Of a DNA stretch of 64,000 bases, positions 3,374-58,214 are shown in pieces (the stretch's first letter is position 1; every line of letters begins with the position of its first letter). Source of the DNA: Terriglobales bacterium (lineage in GTDB: Bacteria; Acidobacteriota; Terriglobia; Terriglobales; Acidobacteriaceae); contig DATHMF010000017.1 in the NCBI GenBank assembly GCA_035487355.1, forward strand, positions 1-64,000, written 5' to 3'. The notes under the pieces are model-generated. The model saw only the letters and a program-made list of their open reading frames with translations. It ran no database searches and had not been told where the DNA came from. The position numbers and the translations under genes were made by a program.

Positions 3374-3557
3374 AGCTGTTTCGGAATTGATTTGGACAGC
3401 AAGTTCGAGAGCAGGGCTTTCAGAGGATGCGGAAAAGTCGGCTTTCTTGTCATTCCGAACACGCAGTGGAGGAATCCCTATTGTGCCGAAATTCTCTGCT
3501 TCCGCGTCCGTCAGGGGGCACGGAATTTTATCGGTGCCATAACGATGCTTGGGACTA

Positions 3558-3592
3558 CCGTGGAAGAGCACGGCTTCAGCCGCGCGTTAAGG
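3558..3592 (+). repeat. Dispersed repeat A, copy 1
   Basis: A 35-bp sequence that recurs in opposite orientation at 16880-16914 with 33 of 35 bases identical. It contains the phrase GTGGAAGAGCACGGCTTCAG. Both copies are intergenic. Confidence 0.8.
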
Positions 3593-3640
3593 ATTCCAGA
3601 ACAACGCGGGCTTTAGCCCCTGCGCCTACAACAGCGGCAC

Positions 3641-3716
3641 CACTCTGATATCAAACAGTTCATCCCGTGAAAATTGTGGGTCATAATGGTCTGACGGCAT
3701 TCAGGATGCCGCGTTG
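3641..3716 (+). repeat. Dispersed repeat B, copy 1
   Basis: About 76 bp that match the reverse complement of 58116-58190 at roughly 85% identity by eye. Shared blocks include CACTCTGATATCAAACA, ATTGTGGGTCATAAT and CTGACGGCATTCA. Both copies are intergenic and have no open frame in common. Confidence 0.8.
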
Positions 3717-16796: not shown

Positions 16797-16879
16797 TCAT
16801 CTCTCCGTATCAGGTGAAGCAATTCCCAAATTGGTGTATGCGCGTGACGCCGAAGCTAAGCCCCGTGTTCTTTGTGATC

Positions 16880-16914
16880 CCTTAACGCACTGCTGAAGCC
16901 GTGCTCTTCCACGG
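16880..16914 (-). repeat. Dispersed repeat A, copy 2
   Basis: The partner of 3558-3592, in opposite orientation with 33 of 35 bases identical. It runs directly into the tandem 22-bp repeat upstream of the GH95 gene. Confidence 0.8.
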
Positions 16915-16953
16915 TGATGGATACAGTAATTCACGGAAATGGATACAGTAATT
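16910..16953. promoter_or_regulatory. Tandem 22-bp direct repeat upstream of GH95
   Basis: Two contiguous 22-bp units (16910-16931 and 16932-16953) differ at 2 bases; each ends in ATGGATACAGTAATT. The period is about two DNA turns, so a regulator could bind both on the same face. The site is 115-155 bases upstream of the GH95 start. The regulatory reading is inference; the repeat itself is plain in the sequence. Confidence 0.5.
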
Positions 16954-25034: not shown

Positions 25035-25395
25035 TTACTTTCGATGTTACTACACAGATAGACGTTCCTGCGGAGGCTTCTTATGTTAAGAAACGCAAAG
25101 AAAAGTAACGGTAGAAAAGCAGTTCCCAGTTCTTGGTTGTCAGAAAAGCTCACCGCGGATAACGCGGATTTGCACGGATCGGCTTTTTGGGGGTACCCCC
25201 CTTGCTGGCTTGGGTTGCGGAAAAGAAGCCCTTAGCCTTTGGCTCTTAGCTCTTAGCTTTTAGCCAAAAACAAGAGTTCACCGCAGAGGACGCGGAGGGA
25301 CGCAGAGGCGTATATAGGCAAATCGCCCTAGCGACGGGATACTGCTCTTATGAATTTTCAAAGATCTAATGGGGCGTCATTCCTTTCTGTTTTCC
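25035..25395. other. Intergenic repeat region
   Basis: About 360 bases with no gene. It holds one arm of an inverted repeat (25107-25180), a perfect GGGGGTACCCCC palindrome near 25189, a run of TTAGC/TCTTAGCT-like micro-repeats (about 25225-25265), and a CCGCAGAGG phrase (25277-25308) that recurs at 21869-21900. Confidence 0.7.
25107..25180 (+). repeat. Inverted repeat D, left arm
   Basis: A 74-bp sequence matching the reverse complement of 26729-26803 with about 9 differences in 75 positions. It starts AACGGTAGAAAAGCAG and ends near TTGCACGGATC. The two arms enclose the zinc-finger-like gene and the direct repeats beside it. Confidence 0.85.
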
Positions 25396-26193
25396 TCAAA
25401 TCTTACGGATGTCATCCGGGCCGTACTGGGGATAGCGGGACGGCTGCGGGGGTGGCGCGGGCTTGTTGGGAACGACGACCGGGGGAAAGGGTGAACTCCC
25501 GTGCAGGATTCGTCGCTGAGACAGGGGTGCTGGTTGATTTGGTGGTGCGGCGTTTGGGCTCGCGGCAGAGTCAGTGCCGGGGCTGGTCTGCCGGGCTTGA
25601 TCAGGCCGGGCTGGGTGTTTCTCTTCTGGTTGGTTTCGCTTGCCGGGCACGGCGGAGGCGGCCACGGTGCTCTGGCCCAGAATGGTTGGCTGCGGCTTGG
25701 CGTTGTTCTGGTTCTGGTCCTGGTCTTTGTTATGGTCATCAGCGCGCCGTTCCGGGCGAGGAATCGGGGTAAAGAAGAACTTTACTTGGTCAGGACCGGT
25801 TTTTTTGGCGGCGCGGCCTTCTTCCTGGCGCTGCTCGCGCGCTTTTTCTTTCAGGACAGCGAGGACACTGTTGGCGACGTAGGTGAGGGTGCGTCCGGTG
25901 CGCAGGTCCATTTCACCACGGCAGATGTAGTTGGCGATGTCTTCCAGAAACTCGTGGATATGGGAGAGATCTTTCAGGGGCCGACGTTCGAAACCGGGCG
26001 GCAGGATGGTCTCAGGCGGACGGCTGCGGGTCTCTCCACCTTGCTTACGGGCCTGGGCTTGTTTTTCTTTCTGGCCGGGGTCGTGGAAAAAGCAATAGGG
26101 TTTGCCGGTCTGGGGATCGGCTCTACAGCCGCTGCCGTCTTGGCTGATGTGCTGGCAGCGGGGTTTGTTGCTGAACAATTCTTTGATATTCAT
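25396..26193 (-). CDS. Zinc-finger-like protein of an acidobacterial family, function unknown
   Basis: A 265-residue soluble protein. Its start has four evenly placed ligands: Cys in PRCQHIS, Cys in GSGCRAD, and Cys plus His in PYCFFHDP, a likely C-C-C-H zinc site (about 10-38). A conserved-looking helical part follows (about 60-130; ERRPLKDLSHIHEFLED and RTGRTLTYVANSVLAVLKEK). The rest (about 140-265) is Pro/Gln/Asn-rich and disordered. ATG 26193 has AGGAG upstream and is preferred over the longer frame. From memory, Acidobacteria carry many paralogues with this Cys/His start, but no role is known. The gene sits alone inside a repeat nest. Confidence 0.72.
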   Translation of the reverse strand: MNIKELFSNKPRCQHISQDGSGCRADPQTGKPYCFFHDPGQKEKQAQARKQGGETRSRPPETILPPGFERRPLKDLSHIHEFLEDIANYICRGEMDLRTGRTLTYVANSVLAVLKEKAREQRQEEGRAAKKTGPDQVKFFFTPIPRPERRADDHNKDQDQNQNNAKPQPTILGQSTVAASAVPGKRNQPEEKHPARPDQARQTSPGTDSAASPNAAPPNQPAPLSQRRILHGSSPFPPVVVPNKPAPPPQPSRYPQYGPDDIRKI

Positions 26194-26369
26194 TCTCGGG
26201 CATCTCCTTTGGATGCCTGAGACTATGATGGCCTGGATTGGGGTGGAATGAACAACATGGTGCCGTAGTGGTATCATTCTGGGACCAAAGTATTGACATT
26301 CTGGGATTTTCGATTTACGAATTGCGATTTACGATTTTCTCTCATCTATTTCCGGTGTTTTCTCCCAAG

Positions 26370-26446
26370 CGAGAGATGAAAGGCAGGAGTGAATGAGAGA
26401 ATTCCCTGTAGCGGCATGGGACGATATACATCCTCGGGGTCCTTCG
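26370..26446 (+). repeat. Direct repeat E, copy 1
   Basis: A 77-bp sequence starting CGAGAGATGAAAGG and ending TCGGGGTCCTTCG. The second copy at 26576-26654 has two single-base indels and three substitutions. Confidence 0.85.
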
Positions 26447-26575
26447 ACTTCGCCGCGAAGCGCGGCTCCGCTCAGGATGACAGAGTTAGAAATAGTTTCA
26501 GGTTTCGAGTTTCAAGTTTCAAGAACCAATGACTCTATGGTTCAATCTCACACAGGCTTGGCCGCCTGTGGGAGG

Positions 26576-26654
26576 CGAGAGATGAAAGGGCAGGAGTGAA
26601 TCGAGAGAATTCCCTGAAGCGGCATGGGACGGTATGCATCCTCGGGGTCCTTCG
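26576..26654 (+). repeat. Direct repeat E, copy 2
   Basis: A 79-bp near-copy of 26370-26446 in the same orientation, 129 bases further on. A tandem pair of CCTTCGCCCT...CTCAGGATGACAGACTAGAA phrases follows directly (about 26648-26725). Confidence 0.85.
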
Positions 26655-26728
26655 CCCTCCGGGCTCAGGATGACAGACTAGAATCGGGGTCCTTCGCCCT
26701 GCAGGCTCAGGATGACAGACTAGAAATA

Positions 26729-26803
26729 GATCCGCGCAAATCTGCGTTCATCCGCTGCGAGTTTTTCTGAGAACCGAGAACTGAGAACTGCTTTTCTACC
26801 GTT
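26729..26803 (-). repeat. Inverted repeat D, right arm
   Basis: The 75-bp partner of 25107-25180. Its end overlaps the first unit of the 16-bp tandem array at the 3' end of the pilT-like gene. Confidence 0.85.
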
Positions 26804-26859
26804 CGATAATCCTACCGTTCGATAATCCTACCGTTCGATAATCCTACCGTTCGATAATC
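26796..26859. repeat. 16-bp tandem repeat, four perfect copies, containing the pilT-like stop codon
   Basis: CTACCGTTCGATAATC is repeated four times without change (26796, 26812, 26828, 26844). The innermost copy encodes the last residues (IIER) and TAG stop of the minus-strand ATPase gene; the other three lie downstream. Because 16 is not a multiple of 3, only the first copy read can be coding. Confidence 0.95.
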
Positions 26860-28118
26860 AACTCGGGCTCGGTGGGATGGTGTGTTTCTACTTTGGGGGC
26901 GACTTTCGGCGGCGGAGCAGCTTTCGGCGCAAGCGTTTCTTTGGGGGCAAGGGTTTCAGGCTCTTGTTCGTGGTCACTAAGCTGTAAACGTAAATTCCCC
27001 GGATTCGTCGCATAAGCGAGGCCAGTGTCGAACTCCACGATTCCTTTGCGAATCATCTCTTCGATCATCTGGTCGAAGCATTGCATGCCGTCCAGGTTGC
27101 CATCCACCATGGCGTCAATCAGGCTCTTGCCTTCGCCCTCGCCTTTTTCCATGTACTCGCGTGTGCGCAGGGTAGATTTCAACATCTCGAACGCCGCCAC
27201 ACGGCCTGAGCCATCTTTGCGTGGGATAAGGCGCTGGGAGATGATCCAGCGAAAACTCTTCGATAAGCGGTTGCGAATGATGTGCTGCTCCGGCAAAGGG
27301 AAGACCCCAACAATGCGCTCCACAGTTTTTGAGGCATCCGTCGTGTGCAGCGTGGAAAGCACAAGGTGCCCGGTCTCCGCCGCTTCCATGGCAATCTCGA
27401 TGGTCTCTTTGTCGCGCATCTCGCCTACCAGGATTACCTTGGGCGCCTGGCGCAGTGCCGCTCGCAGCGCCAGCGAGAAGCTGGGGGTATCGCTGTGCAG
27501 CTCCCGCTGATGAATCGTAGAGCGCTTGTGCCGGTGGATAAACTCCACCGGGTCTTCAATCGTGATGATGTGGTATCCGTGGGTCTCGTTGATCCGGTCC
27601 ACGATGGCGGCCATAGTCGAAGATTTCCCCGAACCCGTGGGCCCTGTAACCAGAACAATGCCGTTCTTCAAGCTGGCGATTTCTCCAAGTTGCTCGGGCA
27701 GCTTCAGGTCGGCAAAGGTCGGGACATTTCTTGGGATCACCCGCATCACAATGGCATAGCTGCCGCGCTGCTTGAATATGTTGACCCGGAATCGCCCCTC
27801 TCCCGCAAGGCTGTACGAGGTGTCGCAGGAGCCCTGGTCGCGCAATGCGGTGATGGCCTGCTTGTTGCCGTTGATTAAGTCACCAGCAATGCGCTGAGTG
27901 TCTTCCGGGCTCAGCATTGGCAACTCCGCAATCTTTACCGGGACCAGTTGCCCGCGCAGCTCCACTTGCGGTGGCCGCCCCGGCGAGAAGATCAGGTCGC
28001 TGACCTGGCTGGAAACCTGCAGCATGGTCTTGAGCACTGCATTGGTAGTAATCGCCGGAGCAGCCGGGCTTGTAGGTTCGCTTGGTTCAGGGGTTGAACT
28101 GGTTACGGGTGAATCCAT
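26844..28118 (-). CDS. pilT: PilT/PilU-family twitching-motility ATPase
   Basis: A 424-residue hexameric ATPase of the pilus-retraction type. Walker A is VTGPTGSGKSS, the Asp box is near IEDPVEFIH, Walker B is ILVGEMRDKETI, and the His box is STLHTTDASKT. The N-terminal 30 residues and the C-terminal 50 residues are Pro/Ala/Glu-rich extensions. The AIRNLIRE retraction motif of PilT is not found; the equivalent region reads STLRTREYMEKGEGEGKSL and is followed by DGMQCFDQ, closer to PilU. It probably powers type IV pilus retraction or a related process. No pilus operon is adjacent. Its stop codon lies in a 16-bp tandem repeat. Confidence 0.87.
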   Translation of the reverse strand: MDSPVTSSTPEPSEPTSPAAPAITTNAVLKTMLQVSSQVSDLIFSPGRPPQVELRGQLVPVKIAELPMLSPEDTQRIAGDLINGNKQAITALRDQGSCDTSYSLAGEGRFRVNIFKQRGSYAIVMRVIPRNVPTFADLKLPEQLGEIASLKNGIVLVTGPTGSGKSSTMAAIVDRINETHGYHIITIEDPVEFIHRHKRSTIHQRELHSDTPSFSLALRAALRQAPKVILVGEMRDKETIEIAMEAAETGHLVLSTLHTTDASKTVERIVGVFPLPEQHIIRNRLSKSFRWIISQRLIPRKDGSGRVAAFEMLKSTLRTREYMEKGEGEGKSLIDAMVDGNLDGMQCFDQMIEEMIRKGIVEFDTGLAYATNPGNLRLQLSDHEQEPETLAPKETLAPKAAPPPKVAPKVETHHPTEPELIIER

Positions 28119-29977: not shown

Positions 29978-30967
29978 GTGATGAAGCTGAAGCAATTAGG
30001 TAACAGCGACATGCAGATTACGCCCCTGGGTATTGGCGCCTGGGCGATGGGCGGCGGGGGATGGCAATTCGGCTGGGGCCCACAAGATGACAACAACTCC
30101 ATTGCCGCCATCCACGCCGCCCTTGATGCCGGAATAAATTGGATAGACACCGCCGCCGTCTATGGCCTGGGGCACTCCGAAGAAGTAGTGGCCCAGGCAT
30201 TGAAGGGCCGTTCGAGGCGTCCTTATGTTTTTACGAAATGCGCGCTCATCTGGAACGAAAAAGGTGAAATTGGTCATAGCTTGAAAGCCAGTTCGGTGCG
30301 GCGCGAAGTTGAAGCCAGCCTCAAGCGTTTACAGGTTGATGTGATTGATTTGTATCAGATTCATTGGCCCGATCCTCCACAGGAAATTGAAGAGGGCTGG
30401 GAGACGATGGCCAAACTGAAGCAAGAGGGCAAAGTGCGCTGGATCGGCGTCTCCAACTTCGACGTCGAACAGATGGAACGCGCGCGCAAGATCGCTCCTA
30501 TCACCTCCTTGCAGCCTCCTTATTCCATCATTCGGCCTGATGTTGAGCGTGACATCCTACCCTATTGCGCCCGGAACCAGATCGGCGTGATTGTTTATTC
30601 GCCCATGCAGTCCGGACTTTTGAGCGGCGCCATGACCCGCAAGCGTATTGCCAACATGCCTGAAGATGACTTTCGCAAGCGCAACTCGCACTTCCAGGAG
30701 CCGGAGTTGACCCGCAATCTGGAGTTGGCCAAGTTGTTGCGCAATATCGGTGTCCGCAACCGGCGCAAGCCCGGCGAGGTCGCCATTGCCTGGACCCTGC
30801 GCCGGCCGGAGGTGACGGGAGCAATCGTAGGGATGCGTTCCCCTGAGCAGGTCAAAGGCGTGATCCGCGCGGCCGAGTTTCGCCTGGGCTCTGAAGAGAT
30901 TGCCAGAATCGAATCGTTCCTGCAATCCTGGCAAAGCAAACTTGAACCCCAGCGAAGCGCGGTTTAG
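29978..30967 (+). CDS. Aldo/keto reductase
   Basis: A 329-residue NADPH-dependent oxidoreductase with the AKR barrel. The catalytic tetrad is visible: Asp and Tyr in DTAAVYGLG, Lys in VFTKCAL and His in YQIHWPD. Cofactor-binding segments SNFDVEQM and AIVGMRSPEQV are also present. Either GTG 29978 or the next codon, ATG 29981, is the start; AGGGAGGG at 29961-29968 fits the ATG well. The substrate is probably a sugar or ketone. Its place beside GH105 and the YiaK-type gene suggests a sugar/uronate role. Confidence 0.9.
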   Translation: MMKLKQLGNSDMQITPLGIGAWAMGGGGWQFGWGPQDDNNSIAAIHAALDAGINWIDTAAVYGLGHSEEVVAQALKGRSRRPYVFTKCALIWNEKGEIGHSLKASSVRREVEASLKRLQVDVIDLYQIHWPDPPQEIEEGWETMAKLKQEGKVRWIGVSNFDVEQMERARKIAPITSLQPPYSIIRPDVERDILPYCARNQIGVIVYSPMQSGLLSGAMTRKRIANMPEDDFRKRNSHFQEPELTRNLELAKLLRNIGVRNRRKPGEVAIAWTLRRPEVTGAIVGMRSPEQVKGVIRAAEFRLGSEEIARIESFLQSWQSKLEPQRSAV

Positions 30968-30968
30968 G

Positions 30969-31159
30969 GTAGTGCGTCGTTAAAAACGAAACTTATTTTC
31001 GTGTCGTTGATTTTGCTGAATCGAGCCCAGAGCAAGTTGAAAGCTGGCCTGAAAAACCTAGATCCCTCCACTCCGCCGCGAAGCGCGGCTCCGGTCGGGA
31101 TGACAAAAGCTGCAATACTTAAACACTTATGTTGCAATCTAAATGACGCCCTACACTAG
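30969..31159. mobile_element. 191-bp MITE-like element, copy 1
   Basis: This non-coding 191-bp unit is almost identical to 32264-32454 (4 mismatches). Its ends are inverted repeats: TAGTGCGTCGTT at the left against AATGACGCCCTA at the right (10 of 12 pair). Inside are a hairpin ACGAAA...TTTCGT near the left end and a CCGCG-AAG-CGCGG hairpin in the middle. The small size, terminal inverted repeats and lack of a gene fit a miniature inverted-repeat element. No target-site duplication was recognised. Confidence 0.75.
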
Positions 31160-31242
31160 AACATTGCACAGTTGCTATAGGATTGAGGTTTAAAACTCCC
31201 TACTTCGGAGATTTAGGCATCCGGTTCTAGAAATAGATCACA

Positions 31243-32244
31243 ATGCATAGAGTCCCTTACCAGGAACTTTTCGATACTCTTCTGCGTGTCCTGCTGAAGC
31301 TGGGATTTGAATCTGAGCGTGCCCGGCTCTGCGCCCGGCTTTTCGCCGACGCGAGCCGCGACGGCGTTTACTCCCACGGCCTGAATCGTTTTCCGCGCTT
31401 TGTCCTGCAAATTCAAAATGGGACCATCAACATTCATGCCGAGCCTGAGCTCGTGGCAGCCAGCGGCTCGCTCGAACGCTGGGATGGAAAACTTGGCCCT
31501 GGTCCTCTCAATGCTTACCAGTGCATGGAAAGAGCGATCGCGCTTTCCAAGAAGCACGGTACGGGTTGCGTAGCTCTGGCCAATACCACGCACTGGATGC
31601 GTGGCGGAAACTTCGGCTGGCAGGCAGCCGACGCCGGCGTCATTGGAATTTGCTGGACCAACACCCTGCCCAACCTTCCGCCCTGGGGCGCGAGCGATCC
31701 GCGTGTGGGCAATAACCCCCTGATCATCGCGGTGCCCCGGCCCGCCGGCCACGTAGTGCTCGATATGGCCGTGTCACAGTTCTCGTACGGGGCGCTGGCT
31801 TCTTATCGCACGCGCGGTGAACTGCTTCCGGTGGACGGTGGCTTCGATACGAAAGGGCAGCTAACCCGAGATCCCGCAGCCATTGAAGCATCAAAGCGGC
31901 CCTTGCCTATTGGTTACTGGAAAGGCTCGGGTCTGGCATTGATGCTTGACCTGGTGGGGGCGCTGCTGTCAGGGGGCAAGGCCACGCATCAGATTACATC
32001 CGATCCCGACCGCGAAAGCTATCTCTCGCAGGTCTTCATCGCATTGGATCCGTCGTCTGTCGGTTCCCCTGAAGTTGCCGCCAGGATTGCCGACGAAGTC
32101 ATTGCGTACTTCAAACTGCCGCCGCACTCGGGTGGCGAGCAGGTGCGATATCCGGGTGAACAAGTACTGAAAACCCGAAGCGAGAACCTGGCCAAAGGCA
32201 TCCCGGTCGAGCCGGCGATCTGGAGCAAGGTGCAGGCGATGTAA
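31243..32244 (+). CDS. YiaK-type 2,3-diketo-L-gulonate reductase (3-dehydro-L-gulonate 2-dehydrogenase)
   Basis: A 333-residue NAD(P)H oxidoreductase of the malate/L-lactate dehydrogenase (Ldh2) family. It aligns throughout with Escherichia coli YiaK as I recall it, including GVYSHGLNRFPRF, THWMRGG.FGWQAA, IGICWTN, PPWGA, FSYG, LPVDGGFD and GYWKGSG. His in SHG is the likely catalytic base. It would reduce diketo-gulonate in L-ascorbate/L-gulonate or related uronate breakdown. It lies between two near-identical 191-bp repeats and reads in the same direction as the aldo/keto reductase. The start at 31243 has no strong ribosome binding site. Confidence 0.87.
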   Translation: MHRVPYQELFDTLLRVLLKLGFESERARLCARLFADASRDGVYSHGLNRFPRFVLQIQNGTINIHAEPELVAASGSLERWDGKLGPGPLNAYQCMERAIALSKKHGTGCVALANTTHWMRGGNFGWQAADAGVIGICWTNTLPNLPPWGASDPRVGNNPLIIAVPRPAGHVVLDMAVSQFSYGALASYRTRGELLPVDGGFDTKGQLTRDPAAIEASKRPLPIGYWKGSGLALMLDLVGALLSGGKATHQITSDPDRESYLSQVFIALDPSSVGSPEVAARIADEVIAYFKLPPHSGGEQVRYPGEQVLKTRSENLAKGIPVEPAIWSKVQAM

Positions 32245-32263
32245 GCAGTTGACAGACGCTGGT

Positions 32264-32454
32264 GTAGTGCGTCATTAAAAACGAAACTTATTTTCGTGTG
32301 GTTGATTTTGCTGAATCGAGCCCAGAGCAAGTTGAAAGCTGGCCTGAAAAACCTAGATCCCTCCACTCCGCCGCGAAGCGCGGCTCCGGTCGGGATGACA
32401 AAAGCTGCGATACTTAAACACTTATGTTGCAATCTAAATGACGCACTACACTAG
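32264..32454. mobile_element. 191-bp MITE-like element, copy 2
   Basis: The better-preserved copy: TGTAGTGCGTCATT at the left end pairs perfectly with AATGACGCACTACA at the right end. Otherwise it matches 30969-31159 at 187 of 191 positions and has the same orientation. It starts 20 bases after the YiaK-type stop. Confidence 0.8.
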
Positions 32455-32553
32455 TTACCAGTTTCCAGTTTCTAACTAAAAACCGGACTCTGACGAAGAA
32501 TATCGCGAACTGCATTAAGAACCTTTTTCCCTGCCTTGAATCCAAGTTGCTAT
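32455..32553. other. Leader region of the secretin gene
   Basis: About 100 bases between MITE-like copy 2 and the secretin start, with a TTTCCAGTTTCTAACT micro-repeat. No clear ribosome binding site precedes ATG 32554. Confidence 0.4.
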
Positions 32554-34365
32554 ATGAACCAATTCAGTGGTCGGCTGGCATTGGTTATTTGTCTGCTTAC
32601 GGCGCTCGTGCTGTGGGCCGAGTCTCCCGCTTCGCTGTACAAAAAAGGGAAAGACGCGGAGGCCGCCCAGATGTACGAAGCCGCGTACGAGCTTTACAAG
32701 CAGGCTTACGATAAAGATCCCAAGGACCTTCGCTTCCGCGTGGCCTTCGAGCGCAGCCGGTTTTATGCGGCCGCCGCGAAAGTGCATCGCGGCCAGCTTT
32801 TCCGCGATGGCGGCAGGTTAGAGGATGCGCTGGCGCAATTTGAGGCGGCTGCCGCCATTGATCCCTCGATGGATATCGCCCAGCAGGAAATCCGTCTGAC
32901 CCGCCGCATGATGGAGGAGCTCAAGCAGCAGCCGCCCTTGCAAGACGAGGTCCAATCGCAGGGGCCGCTTTCCAGCCGGTTGCAGCGCGCCCAGGGGCCG
33001 GTGGAATTGCAGGCGATCTCAGACCAGCCCATCACACTCAAGATGACCGAAGACAGCCGCATACTCTATGAGGTCATCGGCAAATATGCAGGGATCAACG
33101 TGCTGTTCGATCCGGACTTCGCGGCGCACCGCATCCACGTTGAACTGAACGGGGTTTCACTGCGGGATGCGCTCCAGATCGTGGCTTTCGAGTCCAAGAC
33201 GTTCTGGCGTCCGGTGACCCGCAACACAATTTTTGTTGCGCAGGATAATCCCACCAAACGCAGGGAACTGGAGCAGAACGTCATCAAGACCTTTTATCTT
33301 TCCAATGTCTCGCAGCCTGCAGAGTTGAATGACATTGCGGCGGCACTGCGCTCGCTCTTGCAGATTGAGCGCGTGCAGCTCATGGTCTCAAAGAACGCCA
33401 TTGCCGTGCGCGGAACTCCTGACCAGATCGCCCTGGCGGAAAAATTGATTGATGATTTCGATAAAGCTGAGCCCGAAGTGGTGGTGGATGTTGCCATCAT
33501 GCAGGTGAACCGCGACCGTAGCCGTACCCTTGGAATTACCCCTCCCCCGCTTGCAAAAATAGGGCTTACCGGTGCACAGGACCCCGCTAGCACAAGCAAC
33601 AACAGTGGCAGCAGCAACCCCTCCAGCAGTGGAGGTCTGACCTTCAATTCTTTCAAGCATCTGGGTTCGCAAAGCTACTCGGTCGCCATGTCTCCGGCAA
33701 CACTTAATTTCCTGTTCGGCGATAGTGACAGCAGGATCATACAAAGCCCCCAGGTACGGTCCGTAAACGGAGCCAAGGCTACACTAAAAATCGGCGACCG
33801 TGTTCCCATCGCCAGTGGATCGTTTACCAATCCATTGTCGGGGTCTGGCAGCTCCTTCAACCCGGTGGTGCAGACCCAATTCAGCTATCAGGATGTGGGC
33901 GTGCGAATTGAAATCACGCCTACCGTCCATGCCAACCGCGAAATTAACCTCAAAGTTTCAATGGAGATATCTTCGATTACGGGCAAAAGAACAATCGGTG
34001 ATATTGATCAGCCCACCATCGGGCAGCGCACCATCGAAAATGAAATTCGTCTTCAAGAGGGCGAAATCAATATCATGGGAGGGATCTTCGAGGATTCAGA
34101 GATCAAGAGCTGGAGCGGCCTTCCCGGATTGGGAAGAATTCCGCTGTTCCGGCATCTGTTTGCCACAGAGACCAGAGATCATAATGTTAACGAGATCCTA
34201 TTTGTGCTGATTCCTCACATCGTGCGTCGGCAGGAAATTACACCCTTAAATACGGAATCCATCGATGCCGGCACCAAAGATACGATAGAGCTGCGCCAGA
34301 GTCCGGTTCAGCCGCCGCCGGCCCAACCTCCAACGCCGTCGCAGCCGGCCCAGCAACACCAGTAA
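32554..34365 (+). CDS. TPR-containing secretin (GspD/PilQ family)
   Basis: An outer-membrane secretin of about 603 residues. It has a signal peptide (LVICLLTALVLWAES), two TPR-like helical repeats (about 25-105), an STN/N0-type domain (about 140-225), a secretin N-domain (about 230-310) and the secretin barrel (about 315-565; VGVRIEITPTVHANREINL, LPGLGRIPLFRHLF). The barrel has a Ser/Asn/Gly-rich insert near 345-360, and the tail is Pro/Gln-rich. It forms an export gate for type II secretion or type IV pili. An upstream in-frame TTG (32536) would add 6 residues. It stands alone here, far from other secretion genes. Confidence 0.88.
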   Translation: MNQFSGRLALVICLLTALVLWAESPASLYKKGKDAEAAQMYEAAYELYKQAYDKDPKDLRFRVAFERSRFYAAAAKVHRGQLFRDGGRLEDALAQFEAAAAIDPSMDIAQQEIRLTRRMMEELKQQPPLQDEVQSQGPLSSRLQRAQGPVELQAISDQPITLKMTEDSRILYEVIGKYAGINVLFDPDFAAHRIHVELNGVSLRDALQIVAFESKTFWRPVTRNTIFVAQDNPTKRRELEQNVIKTFYLSNVSQPAELNDIAAALRSLLQIERVQLMVSKNAIAVRGTPDQIALAEKLIDDFDKAEPEVVVDVAIMQVNRDRSRTLGITPPPLAKIGLTGAQDPASTSNNSGSSNPSSSGGLTFNSFKHLGSQSYSVAMSPATLNFLFGDSDSRIIQSPQVRSVNGAKATLKIGDRVPIASGSFTNPLSGSGSSFNPVVQTQFSYQDVGVRIEITPTVHANREINLKVSMEISSITGKRTIGDIDQPTIGQRTIENEIRLQEGEINIMGGIFEDSEIKSWSGLPGLGRIPLFRHLFATETRDHNVNEILFVLIPHIVRRQEITPLNTESIDAGTKDTIELRQSPVQPPPAQPPTPSQPAQQHQ

Positions 34366-57838: not shown

Positions 57839-58214
57839 ATCCGGCTTAAGGACGCAACGAGGAGCCCTCAGGCGCTTTCCTGGAGCTTGAAACTGAGAGC
57901 CGGGAGCTGTTTTCGGTCGTACCCCCACCCCACTTGCTGAAAGAGGCGGTATAGCAGCTAAGTCCCAGGCCATCAATGACATACGCCAGAAAACTAGTGT
58001 ACTAGCAGGTAGTGTCTGGCGGTGGTCTCAAATGGGCCAATTTTTAAAGATCAACGCTCACCCTATGCGCCGATTTTTCTGAGCACTGCTCTATGTTTTT
58101 TCAAAGATCTCGTACCAACGGGCATTCTGAATGCCGTCAGCCAATTATGACCCACAATCTTCGCAGAATGAAGTGTTTGATATCAGAGTGATATCAATGT
58201 GGTGAAATGGTCCT
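57839..58214. other. Intergenic region with repeat fragments
   Basis: About 375 bases between convergent genes. It contains repeat B copy 2 (58116-58190), a GGTCGTACCCCCACCCCAC phrase, and CTAGTGTACTAGCAGGTAGTG near 58001. No gene was seen. Confidence 0.6.
58116..58190 (-). repeat. Dispersed repeat B, copy 2
   Basis: The opposite-strand partner of 3641-3716. The shared blocks CTGACGGCATTCA, ATTGTGGGTCATAAT and CACTCTGATATCAAACA are in the same order. Confidence 0.8.

Follow-up and report, generated by a model that had tools for sequence, protein, structure and literature searches.

The window analysed here, a 64,000-nucleotide stretch of a Terriglobales contig from a 5.43-Mb draft genome (118 contigs, 96.6% complete), carries an aldo/keto reductase gene and, downstream of it, a gene for a YiaK-type 3-dehydro-L-gulonate 2-dehydrogenase, each of which is followed by one copy of a short repeat (Table 1). 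A sequence-only reading of the window had described two direct copies of about 191 bp at 30969-31159 and 32264-32454, and our comparison reproduced both the positions and the identity between them (187/191, 98%). After the element ends were set by comparison with IS630 elements, each copy measured 190 bp, and the two, in direct orientation, were identical at 185 of 190 positions, differing at element positions 2, 13, 39, 148, and 184. The same reading had placed exactly one YiaK-type gene between the copies and no gene inside them. The first point agrees with the assignment of the intervening gene to NCBIfam NF009750 (2.3e-130) in the Ldh_2 family, and the second with an ORF check, which gave no credible ORF in either element. 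As well, a promoter and terminator scan revealed nothing within the two elements.

Table 1. Features of the repeat pair and adjoining genes, in window coordinates.
Feature	Position	Strand	Remark
Aldo/keto reductase gene	29978..30967	+	copy 1 inserted in its stop codon
Left-hand TA of copy 1 (target duplication)	30965..30966		within the TAG that ends the aldo/keto reductase gene
Probable MITE, copy 1 (190 bp)	30967..31156	+	terminal repeats GGGTAGTGCGTCGTT / GTGTAGGGCGTCATT; ends by IS630 comparison
Palindromic inner core, copy 1 (approximate)	31050..31109	+	dispersed REP-like repeat
Right-hand TA of copy 1 (target duplication)	31157..31158
yiaK-type gene, 3-dehydro-L-gulonate 2-dehydrogenase (Ldh_2 family)	31243..32244	+	between the two elements
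Left dinucleotide of copy 2	32260..32261		TG; TA expected, one substitution
Probable MITE, copy 2 (190 bp)	32262..32451	+	perfect 15-bp terminal inverted repeats GTGTAGTGCGTCATT
Palindromic inner core, copy 2 (approximate)	32345..32404	+	same dispersed REP-like repeat
Right-hand TA of copy 2 (target duplication)	32452..32453		CTAG context

The terminal inverted repeats of copy 2 are perfect, as had been noted, though their length is 15 bp (GTGTAGTGCGTCATT) rather than the 14 bp first given. Those of copy 1 depart from this sequence by two mismatches at the left end and one at the right, and because all three terminal-repeat substitutions relative to the IS consensus fall in copy 1, its ends are the more decayed. 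The aldo/keto reductase gene ends in a TAG stop codon (30965-30967) inside which copy 1 begins; TA comes from the target and G is the first base of the element, and the end of the encoded protein is unchanged since this G restores the codon. The yiaK stop codon is separated from copy 2 by 17 bp. Copy 1 stands between two genes, aldo/keto reductase and yiaK, that are probably cotranscribed, and the element might influence their transcript.

Element ends and IS630-family relatives

The two arms of the element, with the core removed, were queried across the genomes of the family, and the matches proved to be the ends of other elements in two of them, G075 and G156, where the right end of the 190-bp element matches the ends of IS copies. 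As these arm matches had modest E-values (2e-4 and 7e-4 per genome), the argument rests on anatomy, namely both ends, TA on both sides, and a transposase between. The IS of G156 is intact, measures 1163 bp, and reads CTA-GTGTAGTGCGTC...transposase...GACGCACTACAC-TAG (with the ends written longer, CTA-GTGTAGTGCGTCGCAAATG...GAATGACGCACTACAC-TAG); its transposase of 378 aa matches NF033545 of the IS630 family at 9.5e-86 and DDE_3 at 1e-21. Terminal repeats of the 15-bp GTGTAGTGCGTCATT type are also present on IS in G156 (L066, L103), L102, L095, and others, L066 and L102 being the same IS-bearing G156 sequence, just as L065 and L080 are the same G075 sequence. A transposase gene bounded by the same terminal repeats, which the sequence-only reading had proposed to look for, is thus found in full-length IS of G156 and of other genomes.

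When GTDB contigs were scanned with CTAGTGTAGTGCGTCATT, 31 stretches were returned, compared with about 7.5 expected by chance according to our own estimate, which assumes even base composition. Four of them (L079, L095, L100, and L102) contain a full-length IS that encloses a related transposase and is bounded by TA on either side. Altogether, full-length IS630-family elements with the same ends are 1137-1163 bp long and occur in a genome of the host's family as well as in other phyla. Moreover, five MITE-sized elements of 139-286 bp carry the same kind of ends (L084, L086, L091, L098, and L100). The MITE of L084/L098 recurs on five contigs that all belong to one Ignavibacteria genome; that of L100 is likewise present on four contigs from a single Acidobacteria genome, and on L100 itself an IS630 copy is found 1.1 kb from the MITE. 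The TA is preceded by C at 38 of 40 ends, most of which were chosen by a pattern already including that C. Beyond the 15-bp repeat, the similarity between the MITE and the IS is weak and suggestive only, the best case being 13 of 21 positions between the right end and the 3' end of the L079 transposase. We abandoned the idea of an IS5-type element with a 4-bp duplication of CTAG, as the full-length IS630 elements have TA flanks. Sequence relatives of the transposase were looked for in the PDB and none were found; likewise, our literature search found no paper joining GTGTAGTG with IS630.

Since their ends and TA flanks match those of IS630 insertion sequences and of MITE-sized elements elsewhere, the 190-bp repeats are very probably copies of a non-autonomous MITE with ends of the IS630/Tc1-mariner type, as judged from sequence. 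The earlier proposal of a MITE was well founded in this respect, the ends and the TA/CTAG context being identical to those of full-length IS630-family insertion sequences. At 190 bp and without coding capacity, the element lies below the limit of about 500 bp for IS630-derived MITEs; it bears the terminal inverted repeats of full-length IS630-family IS; and it shows the TA duplication with CTAG preference, as TA/TA around copy 1 and TG/TA around copy 2. The TG in place of TA to the left of copy 2 speaks against this reading, as do the weak similarity to IS630 past the 15-bp repeat, the draft state of the assembly, and the copy number, to which we now turn.

Copy number and the partner transposase

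The complete element occurs at only two places in the host genome, and the 34 further matches represent its middle part alone. The end sequence TAGTGTAGTGCGTCATT, searched with up to three mismatches, gave eight sites in the host genome and nine for the reversed control; the eight consist of the four ends of both copies (0-2 mismatches) and four sites with three mismatches. Further full-length copies were absent from 60 relatives, 299 other genomes of the family, and 398 other genomes of the class (overlapping sets). With two full-length copies in the host and none in several hundred other genomes, repeated mobility lacks support from copy number, and repetition within the genome, as expected of a MITE, amounts to two copies only. 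According to the sequence-only reading, occurrence in these two places alone would have spoken against a mobile element. This is what was found for the full-length element in the host, but the ends recur elsewhere on autonomous elements, and because they bound such elements there, the occurrence at two places does not refute mobility.

The NF033545 profile of the IS630 family found no match in the host genome, while the same search was positive in G156, G075, and the congener G001; the L066 transposase as a query also found nothing in the host. The IS630 transposases of G001 do not have these ends within the DNA examined. Further IS ends at the edges of the host contigs were searched for and none were found, which lowers, but does not abolish, the likelihood that an IS was lost during assembly. 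As the host assembly holds neither an IS630 transposase nor other such ends, the element looks orphaned, that is, stranded in the present assembly. A partner transposase in the same genome is usual for IS630-derived MITEs and is not required. A MITE can outlive its partner, and therefore the missing transposase lowers the present mobility of the element and leaves the reading of its origin intact.

Origin of the pair and linkage of yiaK

We infer that the element was once mobilised in trans, that the pair arose by a local hop, and that the element is immobile today. Under the proposed mechanism, an IS630-family transposase would act in trans on the terminal inverted repeats of about 15 bp and excise the element, which would then be pasted into a TA, preferably within CTAG, and thereby duplicate the TA. 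One copy would have inserted at the TA of the aldo/keto reductase stop codon, which was presumably rebuilt by the first base of the element, and the other shortly downstream of yiaK. The pre-insertion sites would have read ...GCGGTTTAGAACATTG... with a single TA for copy 1 and ...GACGCTAGTTACC... (or CTGG) for copy 2.

The copies are 1295 bp apart, and the random chance of two insertions so near to each other in 5.43 Mb is about 5e-4. Local hopping is known for Tc1/mariner elements, and a local hop, the simplest account of the pair, is likely. It might instead be supposed that duplication or recombination of a DNA segment, rather than two transpositions, produced the pair, in which case the element would still be a MITE. 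The proximity and direct orientation of the sole two copies would fit such an origin, as would the position of copy 2 in a 276-bp interval that also contains a synteny break relative to the congener. However, the flanks of the copies differ right up to the element ends on both sides, so that no flanking DNA was duplicated along with the element, and local hopping of a Tc1/mariner-type element would yield an identical arrangement. Therefore, a duplicated segment is regarded as unlikely, and a tandem segmental duplication in particular was rejected on account of the differing flanks.

The sequence-only reading had also suggested that the pair could have moved yiaK. In the congener G001, an aldo/keto reductase gene (73% identical) is directly followed by yiaK (71%), with unrelated intergenic sequence and no MITE between them, and because this genome keeps the two genes together without the elements, their linkage is independent of the MITEs; that suggestion is thus unsupported. 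The G001 intergenic region does not align with that of the host, though the element is absent there. A composite unit, in which MITE, yiaK, and MITE travelled jointly and delivered yiaK to this site, would account for the same orientation of the copies, for the single gene between them, and for the break in synteny downstream of yiaK, given that the secretin gene adjoins smpB in four genomes of the family including G001. Nevertheless, the arrangement in G001, with no element between the two genes, and the presence of yiaK relatives in other, element-free genomes of the family make it very improbable; the supposed cargo is not foreign to this site in the element-free congener.

The secretin gene (window 32536-34365) adjoins smpB in G001, G010, G083, and G075, and smpB is absent from the window. 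In the host, the secretin gene comes after yiaK and copy 2, which places the synteny break within window 32244-32520. Copy 2 makes up 190 bp of this interval of about 276 bp, and a rearrangement at copy 2 is compatible with this arrangement, though not shown. Recombination between the copies could in principle delete yiaK, as had been envisaged, but no example of such a deletion was seen. The intergenic region between the aldo/keto reductase gene and yiaK of G001 (L169:5692-6010) carries other palindromes, CCCCGAAGGGG, GCCCAGCGCTTCAGCGCTGGG, and GAGTCCCGTAGGGACG; some of these motifs recur within MITEs from other phyla (L084, L100).

Finally, the idea that the repeats represent a conserved regulatory RNA or an intergenic hairpin rather than a mobile element, which could draw on the strong predicted fold of the whole plus strand (z = -4.7 against shuffles) and on the position of copy 1 between genes that are probably cotranscribed, is scarcely credible, as the fold arises from the terminal inverted repeats and the internal palindrome, three of the five differences between the copies (positions 2, 13, and 184) lie in the terminal repeats and weaken or break pairs in a non-compensatory way, the ends are those of IS630 elements in a TA/CTAG context, and no Rfam family matches the element, the sole Rfam match in the window being a tRNA.

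The palindromic core and known systems

Element positions of about 51-143 are common to other dispersed repeats, and the best-conserved part of this core, AAAAACCTAGATCCCTCCACTCCGCCGCGAAGCGCGGCTCCGGTCGGGATGACAAAAG, is palindromic and occurs at 34 other places in the host as well as in nine other genomes of the family. The GTGTAGTG ends are present on none of these 34 core copies. The CGCCGCGAAGCGCGGCTCCG phrase near 26450, taken in the sequence-only reading as a scattered piece of the element, is indeed present; however, it belongs to the dispersed palindrome, of which the MITE carries a copy, and the core copy at 26450 stands in yet another sequence context.

Several other repeats were observed. 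The cluster at window 26395-26860 comprises 57-bp direct repeats at a distance of 208 bp, a 42-bp tandem pair, CTACCGTTCGATAATC in four copies, and a palindrome of the core type whose left flank, GAGAGAATTCCCTGAAGCGGCATGGG...CTCGGGGTCC, is common to L020-L030. Inverted repeats of 54 bp (89% complementary) at 25107-25160 and 26750-26803 surround a region with an ORF (25396-26277) without a Pfam match. Long inverted repeats at 3557-3710, 16848-16915, and 58121-58203 (83 nt at 83%, 68 nt at 79%) are tens of kb apart and possibly constitute another dispersed repeat family. As well, the same core is embedded in a second MITE-like frame, bounded by ends such as TTGACATCCT...AGGATGTCAA, in L003, L004, L007 (1430-1605), L008, L010, and L017; the orientation of the core with respect to this frame is reversed in L008 (host contig C17:84705, 20 kb past the window).

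A RAYT/REP system was considered as the mover of the core and rejected, as the three Y1_Tnp genes of the host are not flanked by it; the repeat-flanked tyrosine transposase gene of REP/RAYT systems was thus not found for the core, and Y1_Tnp had no match in G034 and G035 despite their many core copies. CGTC-tagged REPs have been described without a dedicated transposase (PMC3733652). The minus strand of the core, TGTC-ATCCC...GGGAT, resembles their TGTC-variant tag followed by a stem starting with AT, whereas their stem of 8-9 bp and loop of 4-5 nt differ from the longer, interrupted stem of the core, so that membership is not established (PMC3733652).

The interiors of the five other MITE-sized elements with these ends (four types in four phyla, 139-286 bp) are built of palindromes. 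In one of them, a 139-bp MITE of Thermodesulfovibrio (L091:5362-5500), the left terminal repeat overlaps a CGTC-type REP (GTGTAGTG-CGTCATTCCCGCGAAGGCGGGAATCC), and an inverted second REP-like unit lies inside. IS630-type MITEs with GTGTAGTGCGTC ends might be speculated to spread REP-like palindromes that have no transposase of their own, a proposal that we regard as unlikely. If it were true, the overlap in L091 would link CGTC REPs to IS630-type transposases, and the carriage of palindromes inside MITEs, if general, would suggest how palindromes without a transposase, such as CGTC REPs, spread.

The 190-bp element shares with IS630/Tc1-mariner insertion sequences (IS630, ISY100) the TA target in CTAG, and with the IS of L066/L102 and L095 the terminal inverted repeats GTGTAGTGCGTCATT. 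Unlike IS630-family IS of 1137-1163 bp, which carry a transposase, it has none in its 190 bp, and the host assembly is devoid of an IS630 transposase. Mini-transposons of ISY100 with 30 bp of each end are moved into TA by the transposase alone (PMC2170065), and a preference of an IS630 transposon for TA in CTAG is indicated by the title of Tenzen & Ohtsubo 1991, as cited in PMC2170065. RUP of Streptococcus pneumoniae, whose mobilisation by IS630-Spn1 was proposed, is similarly short and non-coding, with IS630-like ends and a TA target; however, it is 107 bp long and present in 108 copies together with its partner IS in the same genome, in contrast to the two copies and no partner found here (PMC2229807). 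The MITEs around class 1 integrons in Acinetobacter likewise form a near-identical pair around cargo, which they were taken to mobilise (reviewed in PMC10969869), whereas the synteny of the congener argues against this here. MITEs mobilised by IS630-type transposases are an established kind, to which the present pair adds a new example, a clear but ordinary case of an apparently orphaned MITE pair in a genome without a transposase of the IS630 family, and it belongs to a group of IS630 elements defined by their ends, with derived MITEs across several phyla.
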